IMG/VR virus record: IMGVR_UViG_3300019458_000060
Coordinates: 1-41,370 of that record
DNA: 41,370 nucleotides
Direction: 5' to 3' (one strand)
DNA from: a virus
The notes below the pieces were generated by a model that worked only from the letters and a program-made list of their open reading frames with translations, did not search any database and had not been told where the DNA came from. This document shows, one piece after another, positions 1,218 through 32,282 of this stretch. Numbering within the stretch: the first letter of the stretch is position 1; every line of letters starts with the position of its first letter. The position numbers and the translations under genes are program-made.

Positions 1218-1251
1218 ACGAGTCCACGAAGCAAGGGAAGGGGGCGTAGGT

Positions 1252-2484
1252 GTGGCTTCACGTCCCGCGCGAGTGCTGTCCTGCTTCTCCGGCGTCGGCA
1301 GCCTCGACCTCGCTCACCGACTCGTTTTTCCAGACGCTCGCGTCGTCTGCTACATCGAACGGGAGATCCCTGCGGTGGCAGGGCTGGCGGCGCGCATGGC
1401 GGACGGGTCGCTTCACCCCGCTCCGGTGTGGTCAGACGTTAGAACCGTCCCCGACGTGGTTCGCGCCGAGTGGGTCGTCGGTGGATTCCCGTGCCAGGAC
1501 CTCTCCTCCGCCGGCAAGCGCGGGGGGATCGGCGGCGCCCGAAGCGGACTCTTCTACGCGATGCTCGACGCGGCCGAGCGGTGCGGAGCGCGATACCTGT
1601 TCCTCGAGAACGTCCGAGGGATCCTCTCTGCCGACGGGGTGGATGGCGAAGTGGACGCCGACGGGATGGGTGACGGAGCCGACGCTGTTCGAGCCATCGC
1701 CTCCGTTTCGTGGGCGCTGGCCGACGGCGGCTTCGATGCGGAGTGGGTATGTCTTCGCGCGTCCGCCGTTGGCGCTCCGCACGGTCGGGACCGGTGGTTC
1801 TGCCTCGCGTGGCGCGTGGCCGACGCCTCAAGCGCACGACACGGAGAGCCCGAAGTCGGCGGCGCAGATCGCGGCGATGCGCGCGATTGGCCCCGGCGTG
1901 GCGAACCTGAACGAGGCTGTCCTGAAGTGGCCGACCCCGAAGGCGAAGACGGGCGGGGCGAACTCCAAGAGGGGCGAGCGTGGCGCGGGCGGGCCGGATC
2001 TACAAGAGACGGCGCGAACATGGCCGACCCCCGCGTGCCGGGACGACAAGGGCGCGAACGCGAGCGACACGCACTCGACGGATCAACTCCCGAATGTCGC
2101 GGTGCGTTGGCCGACCCCGAGCGCGATGGACTCCATCGGATCGCGGAACGCGACATCGACGAGGCCCAAGGGCTCGGCGCATCACGACGGGACGACGCTG
2201 ACCGACGCGGCGCTGACCTTCCCCTGTTCCCCCCAGGACCCGGCGAGTGGGCCGATGGCGGAGGCGGTCGGATGCTCCCTCTCGATCGAGACGCTGCCCG
2301 ATGGGTCGAGGTGCTTGCGGAAAGGCCCGACCTCGCGCCGGCGGTTGAACCCGGCGTTCGTGGAGTGGCTCATGGGGTGGCCGATAGGGTGGTGCGACTA
2401 CGCGGCGCTGGAAACGGAGTCGTGGTTCTCCAAGGTGCGGTCGCTCTACGACTGCTTTGCCGAAGGGCCGGAGTGACACCGTGA
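1252..2484 (+). CDS. DNA cytosine-C5 methyltransferase
   Basis: A 410-residue protein that should transfer a methyl group from SAM to C5 of cytosine in DNA. Motif I is SCFSGVGSLDL (10-20). Motif IV is GGFPCQ with catalytic Cys81. Motif VI is LENV (118-121). Motif VIII is APHGRDR (175-181). The C-terminal VADRVVRLRGAGNGVV fits motifs IX-X. Between VIII and IX lies a variable target-recognition region with four (V/M/L)AD(A/P) repeats. The GTG start at 1252 follows an AG-rich stretch; a GTG at 1250 opens a different frame. The stop overlaps the next gene (GTGA). A probable role is protecting phage DNA from host restriction. Oddly, a second open frame over the C-terminal half also looks methyltransferase-like (see 1736-2476). 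Confidence 0.92.
   Translation: MASRPARVLSCFSGVGSLDLAHRLVFPDARVVCYIEREIPAVAGLAARMADGSLHPAPVWSDVRTVPDVVRAEWVVGGFPCQDLSSAGKRGGIGGARSGLFYAMLDAAERCGARYLFLENVRGILSADGVDGEVDADGMGDGADAVRAIASVSWALADGGFDAEWVCLRASAVGAPHGRDRWFCLAWRVADASSARHGEPEVGGADRGDARDWPRRGEPERGCPEVADPEGEDGRGELQEGRAWRGRAGSTRDGANMADPRVPGRQGRERERHALDGSTPECRGALADPERDGLHRIAERDIDEAQGLGASRRDDADRRGADLPLFPPGPGEWADGGGGRMLPLDRDAARWVEVLAERPDLAPAVEPGVRGVAHGVADRVVRLRGAGNGVVVLQGAVALRLLCRRAGVTP
1736..2476 (+). CDS. Overlapping +1 frame inside methyltransferase gene, with WPTP motifs
   Basis: In the frame one base ahead of the methyltransferase, an ORF is open from 1250 to 2476. From about ATG 1736 it stops looking like noise. It has four WPTP motifs (WPTPQAHD at 1817, WPTPKAK at 1928, WPTPACRDD and WPTPSAMD) and ends with LNPAFVEWLMGWPIGW followed by DYAALETESW. 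From memory, WPTP repeats and NPxFVEWLMGxPxGW occur in phage cytosine methyltransferases and in proteins annotated near them. Each WPTP is encoded by the same bases as a VADA/VADP-like motif in the main frame (TGGCCGACSCC). It could be a dual-coded protein, a frameshift-accessed alternative C-terminus, or the remains of an ancestral frame. Whether it is translated is unknown. Confidence 0.4.
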   Translation: MRSGYVFARPPLALRTVGTGGSASRGAWPTPQAHDTESPKSAAQIAAMRAIGPGVANLNEAVLKWPTPKAKTGGANSKRGERGAGGPDLQETARTWPTPACRDDKGANASDTHSTDQLPNVAVRWPTPSAMDSIGSRNATSTRPKGSAHHDGTTLTDAALTFPCSPQDPASGPMAEAVGCSLSIETLPDGSRCLRKGPTSRRRLNPAFVEWLMGWPIGWCDYAALETESWFSKVRSLYDCFAEGPE

Positions 2485-4429: not shown

Positions 4430-4978
4430 GTGCGCGCGGCCCCCTCCCCGCCGGCCCGCCTCTCGGCCGCCGAAGCCCGGCGCTTCCTCATCGCTCGGCG
4501 CGGGCTCCGTGCCCCGTTCCCGGCCCTCCGTAGGGGGCCCCGGAAGCAGCGGGCGGAGGGGGCGGCCTCGGGTACCTCCGACGGTTCCGGCTCGCCTACG
4601 GCCAGTTCTGGCGGCCGGCGAGCCAGCCGCGCGAGCCCCGAGGAAGAGCGCCTCGTGGCCGACCTACGCCTACGCGGGGCCGATCCCCCGGCTCGGGACG
4701 CCCGCTACGGTCTCGTCGACCTCGACGGGACGGTGAGGCGCTACCGATTCGATCTCGGCTGGCCCGATCTACGTCTCGCCGTGGAGGTCCAGGGCGGCGT
4801 CTGGAGCCGTGGGGCGCACGGCCGTCCCTCGAACCTCGAACGCGACGCCGAGAAGGCCGCGCTCGCAGCGGCGCGCGGCTGGACGGTCGTCCCGATCACG
4901 AACGCGATGATCCGGTCGGGTCGCGGACTCCGCCTCGTCCTGGCGGTGCTCGAGCGCCTGCGGACTACGGGACCTTGA
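4430..4978 (+). CDS. PD-(D/E)XK-type (DUF559/Vsr-like) endonuclease
   Basis: A 182-residue protein. The last 110 residues match the small phage nucleases related to DUF559/Vsr: an acidic helix (SPEEE, 69-73), then RFDLGWPD with Asp108, then LAVEVQGG with Glu119-x-Gln121, and a basic helix ERDAEKAALAAARGW around Lys142. These are the expected D...ExK/Q active-site elements, so metal-dependent DNA cleavage is likely. The first 65 residues are low-complexity Ala/Pro/Arg. The GTG at 4430 is the first start after an in-frame stop at 4418-4420, leaving a 31-base gap from the upstream gene; a later start is possible. It ends the early operon and overlaps the convergent minus-strand gene by 14 bases. 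Confidence 0.8.
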   Translation: MRAAPSPPARLSAAEARRFLIARRGLRAPFPALRRGPRKQRAEGAASGTSDGSGSPTASSGGRRASRASPEEERLVADLRLRGADPPARDARYGLVDLDGTVRRYRFDLGWPDLRLAVEVQGGVWSRGAHGRPSNLERDAEKAALAAARGWTVVPITNAMIRSGRGLRLVLAVLERLRTTGP

Positions 4979-30523: not shown

Positions 30524-31972
30524 CTAGCCCCGGAACGGGTTGAACACGCGGCGCCGATGCGGGCCGGACAGCCGCTCGCGCCAGAAGTCGGCGGCGTAGT
30601 CCTCGCGCGGCGGCTTCGGCACATCGCTCGCGTGCTTTACGACCCACGCGAACGCGCCGCTCGTCGCGTCCACCTGGTCCATGTAGCCCTTGAGGTCAGG
30701 CGTAGCGCTCGTCAGTTCGTCCACGTAGGCGTGCGTCCACGGCCCCGACATCACCCGCACGTTCCCGCCGCGAGCGTAGGACGCGAAAGGTTGCGCGCGG
30801 ACCCACTTCGGCCCCGTCGCCTTCGTCCCGTGCGTCCGGTATCCGATCAGCCTCCGGCGCCGCGAGTCCGTGACCGAGATCCCAGCCGACCCCGGCTCCT
30901 CCTCCCAGTCGACGTCGACCTCCATACCGTCGACTGCCGCCGTGTCGTCGATCAGCCGCTCGACGTCTCCAGCGTTCCACCGACCACGGACGACGTGCTC
31001 GATCGTCACGACGCCGCGCGGGTTCCGAGACATCAGGAGCCCGACCGTGTAGCAGCCGTCCTCCTTCGTCGCCGCGCAGTCCCAGTAGCGCACTCGAGCG
31101 TAGGCGTCCGATGGGAGGACGTCGACGGTCGACAGGAACTCGCGGTCGATCAGCGCGCCCTCCGAGATCGCCTGCGGGTCTTGCTGGTACTCGGCCGCCC
31201 ACCCGAACGGAGACATCGACGCGCGGATCGTCTCGAGCGCCTCGCGCGAGAACCTCTCCGGCCACAACGCCTCGCCTTCCGTGCGGCCGAGCGGATCGTC
31301 TCGCTCCGCGAGCGCTGGCAGGCGCACGCGCGTCCACTCGCCGGCCTGCGACTCGATGATCCGGCCCGCCAGGTCCTCGCGATGCCAGCGCTGGTGCATC
31401 ACGACGTAGATCGCGCCCGGCTCCTGGCGCGGGATTAGGTCGTCTCGCCACCACGTCCAGACCGCGTCGCGCTGCGTCTTCGAGTGCGCGGCCTCGCTGC
31501 CCTTGATCGGGTCGTCGACGACCACGACGTCGCCGCCGCGACCGACGACAGCGCCGCCGACGCCTACCGCGTATAGCCCGCCGCCTTCCGTCGTGTCCCA
31601 CCGATCCGCGGCGCTCGAGTCCGACGAGACGCGGACCGACAGCGCGTCCGCGTTCGCGATGATCGTGTTTCGCACGCGGCGTCCGTAGTGCGACGCAAGG
31701 TCGGCCGTGTGACACGCGAGGATCACGCGTCGCGACGGCCACCTGTTCAGGTACCAGAGCGGGAACGCGTGACTGAAAAGCTCAGACTTCCCGTGCCGCG
31801 GCGGCGCCTCCACCAGCAGTCTGCGAGGCGTGCCCGTTGCCGCTCGCGCGAGCATCCGTGACATCGTCACGATGTGCGGCAGGTTCGGCTGGTACGACCC
31901 TCGCGTCAGGATCCACAGGAGCGCCGCCGGGCTCTGGGAGCCCAAGACTCGCAAGTAGGTCGTGGGCAGCAT
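30524..31972 (-). CDS. terL: Terminase large subunit
   Basis: A 482-residue packaging motor. The ATPase Walker A is APPRHGKS (56-63), close to the classical phage variant. Walker B is DVVVVDDP (148-155). The nuclease domain begins RYWDCAATK with Asp298, and the later D-rich VDVDWEEEPGS and C-terminal DQVDATSGAFAWV are typical. It translocates DNA into the prohead through the portal and cuts the concatemer. The ATG at 31972 is chosen over an upstream TTG at 31996. It overlaps the small-subunit candidate by 191 bases, unusually long. Confidence 0.96.
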   Translation of the reverse strand: MLPTTYLRVLGSQSPAALLWILTRGSYQPNLPHIVTMSRMLARAATGTPRRLLVEAPPRHGKSELFSHAFPLWYLNRWPSRRVILACHTADLASHYGRRVRNTIIANADALSVRVSSDSSAADRWDTTEGGGLYAVGVGGAVVGRGGDVVVVDDPIKGSEAAHSKTQRDAVWTWWRDDLIPRQEPGAIYVVMHQRWHREDLAGRIIESQAGEWTRVRLPALAERDDPLGRTEGEALWPERFSREALETIRASMSPFGWAAEYQQDPQAISEGALIDREFLSTVDVLPSDAYARVRYWDCAATKEDGCYTVGLLMSRNPRGVVTIEHVVRGRWNAGDVERLIDDTAAVDGMEVDVDWEEEPGSAGISVTDSRRRRLIGYRTHGTKATGPKWVRAQPFASYARGGNVRVMSGPWTHAYVDELTSATPDLKGYMDQVDATSGAFAWVVKHASDVPKPPREDYAADFWRERLSGPHRRRVFNPFRG

Positions 31973-32282
31973 CGACGGATCGGGGAGTGAGCGCAAGGAC
32001 GTTCACATGTACGGGCGGAACGGGCACCGTACTCGCCGGCTCGCCTCGAGGCCGCAGAAACGCCGCCGCCGTCTCCACGGCCCGCGTGTCGTCGCCGACC
32101 AGCGTCGAGAGCGCCTTGCGCTTCTCGCTCGGCGTAGTCTTGTCGCTGTGGGCGTACGCAGCGAGCGCGCGTCTCGCCTCACCGTCGGCGGCAGCGCCAA
32201 GCCGAGCCTCCATCGCTCGACGGAAGAGCCGCCTCGTCGAGAATTTGTCGTCGTTGGGGACGAGCGCGGAACCGTCGGCCAT
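31782..32282 (-). CDS. Putative terminase small subunit
   Basis: A 166-residue protein immediately upstream of TerL. The first 95 residues are helical and charged (STRRLFRRAMEARLG, SEKRKALSTLVGDDTRAVETAAAFL), compatible with a small terminase DNA-binding protein; the last 65 are low-complexity and encoded over the start of TerL in another frame. The assignment is by position. The ATG has the pre-start 13-mer GGTGTAGGCTCTC at a 5-base distance. Confidence 0.62.
   Translation of the reverse strand: MADGSALVPNDDKFSTRRLFRRAMEARLGAAADGEARRALAAYAHSDKTTPSEKRKALSTLVGDDTRAVETAAAFLRPRGEPASTVPVPPVHVNVLALTPRSVDAAHDLLASLGLPEPGGAPVDPDARVVPAEPAAHRDDVTDARASGNGHASQTAGGGAAAAREV

Follow-up and report, generated by a model that had tools for sequence, protein, structure and literature searches.

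A virus methyltransferase gene with two full-length overlapping frames, interpreted as a split C5-cytosine methyltransferase

A single gene in a virus record carries two reading frames that overlap over its whole length on the same strand, and we consider it likely that they encode the two subunits of a naturally split C5-cytosine methyltransferase (C5-MTase). The record was analysed over its full 41,370 nucleotides, here called the window. One frame, alpha (frame 0), carries the catalytic motifs, and the other, beta (the +1 frame), carries WPTP modules and a segment resembling motif IX. Comparison with relatives shows that both frames are conserved, that the motifs are divided between them, that the arrangement of the starts is kept and that the modules are shuffled.

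We also lean towards the broader view that hundreds of phages and prophages, in several bacterial phyla, encode both structural domains of a single enzyme in two frames of one stretch of DNA, behind one ribosome-binding site and nearly coincident starts and with exchangeable cassettes in the second frame, and that annotations record just one frame or the other. Prokaryotic same-strand pairs that overlap at full length have rarely been documented. Because both products are apparently parts of one enzyme, the constraint on each can easily be read and tested. If this is true, the family offers abundant natural data on the sharing of one sequence by two frames, and the annotation of a widespread group of phage methyltransferases changes. 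It would also add a modular recognition system for cytosine methylation, overlooked because it sits in the unannotated frame. A literature search found no report of such dual coding; as most subscription papers lay outside its scope, this is weak evidence of novelty.

Division of the enzyme between two frames

Both frames begin with GTG and are open, alpha for 410 aa and beta for 408 aa (Table 1). FSGVG, GFPCQD (with Cys81), ENV (residues 119-121), HGRDR (177-181) and GAGNGVV lie in alpha, so that motifs I, IV (PCQ), VI (ENV), VIII (RxR) and X are all in one chain. An earlier interpretation made from the letters of the DNA (the sequence-only reading) had taken this frame for a complete C5 methyltransferase. 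The signature residues it named are present, but the canonical motif IX is absent from alpha. PF00145 matches residues 7-189 only (E=2.3e-19), and the monomer layout of this family is broken, with the recognition domain and motif IX outside the alpha chain and FVEWLMGW in the +1 frame.

That reading was right that the +1 frame is open across the gene and that it holds four WPTP motifs placed on the bases of VAD-type motifs. All four are exact (W190, W227, W258 and W287), they share their bases with VADA, VADP, MADP or LADP of frame 0, and they are followed by LNPAFVEWLMGWPIGW. The DNA of this last segment also codes the alpha stretch ahead of motif X, and F370, V371, E372, W373, L374, M375, G376 and W377 of beta are invariant in a 61-row alignment. 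Searched separately, beta matched phrog_1008 (8e-27) and phrog_27243 (5e-16), which are distinct from the PHROGs matched by frame 0 (phrog_29583, 363 and 116), and both were matched by 61 of 61 aligned members. The WPTP frame thus has database relatives, as the sequence-only reading needed it to have. Nothing matched beta in Pfam, NCBIfam or PDB.

The AlphaFold model of alpha has a pLDDT of about 95 over most of residues 1-190, and residues 203-313 are predicted to be disordered (pLDDT <50). Its best Foldseek match is M.HaeIII (1dct, E=2.5e-12, about 184 columns). The beta model is poor (pTM 0.26), with low confidence over residues 1-200 and a confident stretch at 361-408. Given this model and the lack of a Pfam or PDB match, the small-domain fold of beta is putative. 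In C5-MTases the large domain comprises motifs I-VIII and X, and the small domain comprises the recognition region and motif IX (PMC3404938). With I-VIII and X in alpha and the modules and IX in beta, the frames split the enzyme at its domain boundary.

The start codons of the two frames overlap. The Shine-Dalgarno-like stretch GGGAAGGGGG lies 5 nt from the beta start and 7 nt from the alpha start, and an in-frame TAG (1247-1249) immediately precedes the beta GTG. We infer that one ribosome-binding site would serve both frames. The overlapping arrangement is kept in relatives, as ATGTGG, ATGAATG/GTGAATG or ATGACATGG. In 62 of 63 aligned loci, a start codon stands where the beta alignment begins (MWLY, MTWLY, MAWLF etc.). 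The beta start was located in 199 of 234 loci, and in 192 of those 199 the alpha start codon falls at +2, -4 or +5 nt from it, although the +2 offset is automatic once beta begins MW and so counts as evidence through conservation of the W and not independently.

We propose that ribosomes would load at one site and begin translation in beta (1250) or, 2 nt downstream, in alpha (1252). Alpha would contribute the catalytic domain (I-VIII and X). Beta would run as a mostly disordered leader across the catalytic DNA and then form the small domain from its WPTP modules and motif IX, so that each frame would idle through the domain of the other. We infer that both frames are translated and that their products associate into one active enzyme, whose probable role is to protect phage DNA from host restriction by marking it. 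In the comparison with relatives, the WPTP modules behave like recognition cassettes that can be exchanged.

Table 1. Features of the methyltransferase gene, in window coordinates
Feature	Position	Strand	Evidence or remark
Purine-rich Shine-Dalgarno-like stretch GGGAAGGGGG	1235..1244	+	read from sequence
Overlapping start codons GTGTG (beta GTG 1250, alpha GTG 1252)	1250..1254	+	first starts of both ORFs
Beta (+1 frame): N-terminal leader, WPTP modules, motif IX-like segment, putative small domain	1250..2476	+	PHROG matches
Alpha (frame 0): predicted C5-cytosine methyltransferase subunit, motifs I-VIII and X, catalytic large domain	1252..2484	+	Pfam, AlphaFold, Foldseek
Catalytic Cys81 codon, alpha (GFPCQD, motif IV)	1492..1494	+	invariant in 61-63 relatives
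ENV, alpha motif VI	1606..1614	+	E119, N120, V121 invariant or almost
HGRDR, alpha motif VIII	1780..1794	+	R179, R181 invariant
Recognition region, coded in +1 frame	1810..2211	+	beta excess; alpha a poorly constrained linker
WPTP 1, +1 frame	1817..1828	+	
WPTP 2, +1 frame, module WPTPKAKTGGANSKRGERGAGGPDLQE	1928..1939	+	
WPTP 3, +1 frame	2021..2032	+	
WPTP 4, +1 frame	2108..2119	+	
LNPAFVEWLMGWPIGW, beta motif IX-like segment	2345..2392	+	conservation, beta-synonymy
GAGNGVV, alpha motif X	2404..2424	+	G387, N388, G389 invariant; helix 392-406 pLDDT >90

Recurrence of both frames in relatives

The gene is 70% GC. Synonymous shuffles leave its +1 frame open in 7% of cases (1.9 stops expected), and elsewhere in the GC-rich contig chance alone gives ORFs as long as 829 aa. 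The openness of the +1 frame in the window alone is therefore not significant, and the claim is carried by relatives. Searching with the +1 protein gave 230 viral loci, and 80 of them were kept. In the mixed set of 90 loci, a beta start was assigned automatically to 59 and by hand to a further 7, and 63 aligned pairs were used after one broken, one duplicate and one ambiguous locus had been set aside; a realignment leaves out two rows from annotated phage records. A search of bacterial genomes gave 144 relatives, 80 of them kept. An alpha-only search was added because the earlier searches had used beta.

Viruses and bacterial genomes together contain over 200 related loci with the same +1 relation, which mostly spans the whole gene. 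Motif IX lies in the +1 frame relative to the catalytic frame in 74 of 90 mixed loci and in 79 of the 80 bacterial-genome loci, 71 of which are dual and open over the whole gene. Hosts of the genome loci range from Alpha- and Gammaproteobacteria through Myxococcus to Planctomycetota and Chloroflexi. In the alpha-only search, the catalytic half (the N region) has no +1 stop in 74 of 76 classified viral loci, 49 loci pass a strict dual test and two are single-frame; the loci are akin to each other, many in this set closely, and these counts are not independent. The E. coli, Salmonella phage and Acinetobacter versions have alpha and beta open and a stop-rich third frame, and the dual-coding Acinetobacter locus has a GC content of 44%.

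Existing records divide over which frame is the gene. Two Synechococcus phages, Yong-M2-251 (L004) and Ssp-JY39 (L191), have 100% identical DNA over the methyltransferase gene, yet one record annotates alpha, as a methyltransferase, and the other annotates beta, as a hypothetical protein. In Acidovorax phage Alfacinha3, beta is the sole annotated frame.

Some loci depart from the common pattern. A prophage copy in E. coli PCP07014 (L187) has a premature stop in both alpha and beta and is annotated as a pseudogene. A few loci, among them L070, L137, L148, L153 and L154, have alpha stops ahead of motif IX; in L070 and L153 the alpha frame, read through its stops, still encodes motif X downstream. 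In these five, alpha may be decaying or motif X may be supplied separately. In L022 the WPTP/IX segment stands in a different frame relative to the catalytic motif (rel=2), and a motif X-like piece lies downstream in the +1 frame, consistent with an indel or an assembly error. Two weak matches lie in plasmids.

Constraint on the second frame and competing explanations

Across 59 loci there are 0 +1 stops against 237 expected, in a set chosen because its beta frames are open. A fair test is confined to the N region, which the search patterns leave untouched. Here viral loci have 10 +1 stops against 75.8 expected (68 loci), with four loci accounting for all ten, and bacterial-genome loci have 0 against 72.2 expected (76 loci). 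Stops in the +2 frame of this region are about as frequent as expected, and single-frame or split relatives, used as a control, have 65 +1 stops against 60.1 expected.

In a leave-one-out profile test over four regions, the +1 frame of the window outscored all synonymous shuffles in each (window against shuffle maximum, in bits): N 61.7 vs 46.2, middle 42.1 vs 38.8, recognition 84.1 vs 32.5 and C-terminal 66.5 vs 29.5. In the recognition region, the mean excess over ten loci was 50.8 bits for beta, 14.5 for the +2 control and 16.0 for alpha given beta. We interpret the far larger beta excess to indicate that beta codes the recognition region and that alpha is nearly a passenger there. At the C-terminus, both alpha and beta are constrained. 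Alpha dominates in the catalytic half (122 bits); the beta value of 46 is modestly over the +2 control of 34, and since that control is also raised, part of the signal in this region reflects shared ancestry or DNA conservation.

The first codon position of alpha is the third of beta, and a further test uses this to ask how often alpha first-position changes are synonymous in beta. Their share is 0.849 against 0.754 expected over residues 3-78, 0.852 against 0.736 in the recognition region and 96.6% against 73.2% in the motif IX overlap. The excess is absent from residues 79-121 and from the single-frame control (0.831 vs 0.849). A comparison of pairwise +1 identity with that of synonymous shuffles was dropped, as +2 was raised too; the profile, stop-codon and beta-synonymy tests, with their controls, were used instead.

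Taken at the level of sequence, dual coding of the gene is well supported. Substitutions across homologues respect the WPTP frame, as they must if it codes for protein. The sequence-only reading had suggested that the recognition region might be truly dual-coded. Dual coding held up, but the limits it drew did not: the whole gene is involved, and frame 0 carries little of the constraint in the recognition region itself.

A programmed +1 frameshift near 1800-1830, raised in the sequence-only reading, is disfavoured, and we judge it unlikely. Translation from the alpha start would then yield two products, unshifted alpha and a fusion protein joining motifs I-VIII to the WPTP/IX part. The +1 frame does take over right after motif VIII, and actinophage pairs overlap just after VIII with the second ORF always in +1. 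However, no shift is needed to explain the gene. With a shift there, the catalytic half would not need an open, partly conserved +1 frame, nor would beta need the N-terminal start codon found in nearly all aligned loci, and the fusion would be without motif X, which remains in alpha.

Production of beta from an internal start only, as in the actinophage pairs and with some other cause for the upstream openness, is about equally improbable for the window gene. Candidate starts exist at 1643, 1670 and 1736 (ATG at 1736 and 1643), and the four loci that hold all the viral +1 stops of the catalytic half (L014, L044, L051 and L067) have them upstream of the modules, so that an internal beta start is probable in that branch. 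Against this explanation, no internal start column ahead of the modules exceeds 36 of the 63 aligned loci or is comparably conserved, the bacterial-genome loci are free of upstream +1 stops, and the beta-synonymous excess extends over residues 3-78.

That one frame is real and the other a shadow of codon use in GC-rich DNA is very improbable: the 7% chance of an open +1 frame in the window and the common bases of the VADA and WPTP motifs would fit it, but neither frame is reproduced by synonymous shuffles, the Acinetobacter locus is dual-coding at much lower GC, controls have normal numbers of +1 stops, and alpha has its catalytic residues and beta its phage homologues.

Recognition modules and other split layouts

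WPTP-type modules have a median length of 39 aa, and 0-8 were counted per locus. The WPTPKAKTGGANSKRGERGAGGPDLQE module of the window is found at other positions in many loci (for example, at 83% in L010 and 81% in L041). We identified 164 module pairs that are at least 65% identical between loci whose catalytic parts are less than 60% identical, and position or copy number differs in 135 of these. Module pairs between distant loci at E<1e-6 number 755 in beta, 162 in alpha and 37 in the third frame. The modules are thus conserved in the beta frame, not in alpha, and shuffled among phages.

Multispecific phage C5-MTases of the SPR and phi3T type carry tandem recognition modules of about 40 aa. 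The window gene is like them in having tandem modules of that size, repeated and exchangeable, in a phage C5-MTase, and unlike them in that its modules lie out of frame with the catalytic part, on a separate chain. Multi-specificity of the window enzyme is hypothetical, and the exchangeable cassettes suggest it. In comparison with the single-chain enzymes M.HaeIII and M.HhaI (PF00145), alpha matches the large domain by sequence and fold, but the small domain lies in another chain and frame.

The closest known enzyme is M.EcoHK31I (YGGCCR), a C5-MTase of two polypeptides, compared here by description. Its small subunit (beta, 176 aa) is encoded in an alternative frame within the gene for the large subunit (alpha, 309 aa); going by these sizes, the window differs in that beta spans the whole gene and the starts nearly coincide. 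In M.EcoHK31I the large subunit has motifs I-VIII and X and the small subunit has motif IX (PMC3404938), and the two parts in the window are divided in the same way and are likewise encoded apart. The recognition domain of M.EcoHK31I is placed in the large subunit (PMC3404938), whereas the recognition modules of the window are in beta. M.AquI (CYCGRG) is also a C5-MTase in two polypeptides, encoded by two overlapping genes and split after motif VIII. Its beta has both IX and X (PMC3404938), unlike the window, where X is in alpha. The window pair is, as far as these sequence features indicate, a further form of the naturally split C5-MTase known from M.EcoHK31I and M.AquI.

In actinophages these two parts are encoded by distinct ORFs that overlap, and the second is in +1. 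In Zaka and Andrew, alpha ends after motif VIII, and a separate +1 ORF has LPTP modules, IX and X; pairs of this kind, Zaka gp91/gp90 for example, resemble M.AquI. In Streptomyces-type methylase genes (L005, L091-L103), the catalytic frame contains IX and X, LPTP motifs are in +1, and a nested +1 ORF ends near IX. The sequence-only reading had also considered that phage methyltransferase subfamilies are related by an old frameshift. This does not explain the window gene, because both frames are retained there, but IX and X do occur in different frames in some other phage lineages. A second functional frame within a phage methylase gene has a precedent in the ShiLan domain, an out-of-frame HNH endonuclease that is a mobile insertion in the third frame of an actinophage methylase gene (PMC11855218). 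The second frame of the window differs in coding part of the methyltransferase itself.

The methyltransferase gene sits in a 41 kb virus record with a terminase gene at 30524-31996 on the minus strand. Its upstream neighbour (255-1217) is a DUF5131 gene (phrog_2045) to which no function is assigned. The product of window positions 4430-4978, which matches phrog_503 (1e-18), is one that we take to be reminiscent of a Vsr/DUF559-like nuclease.
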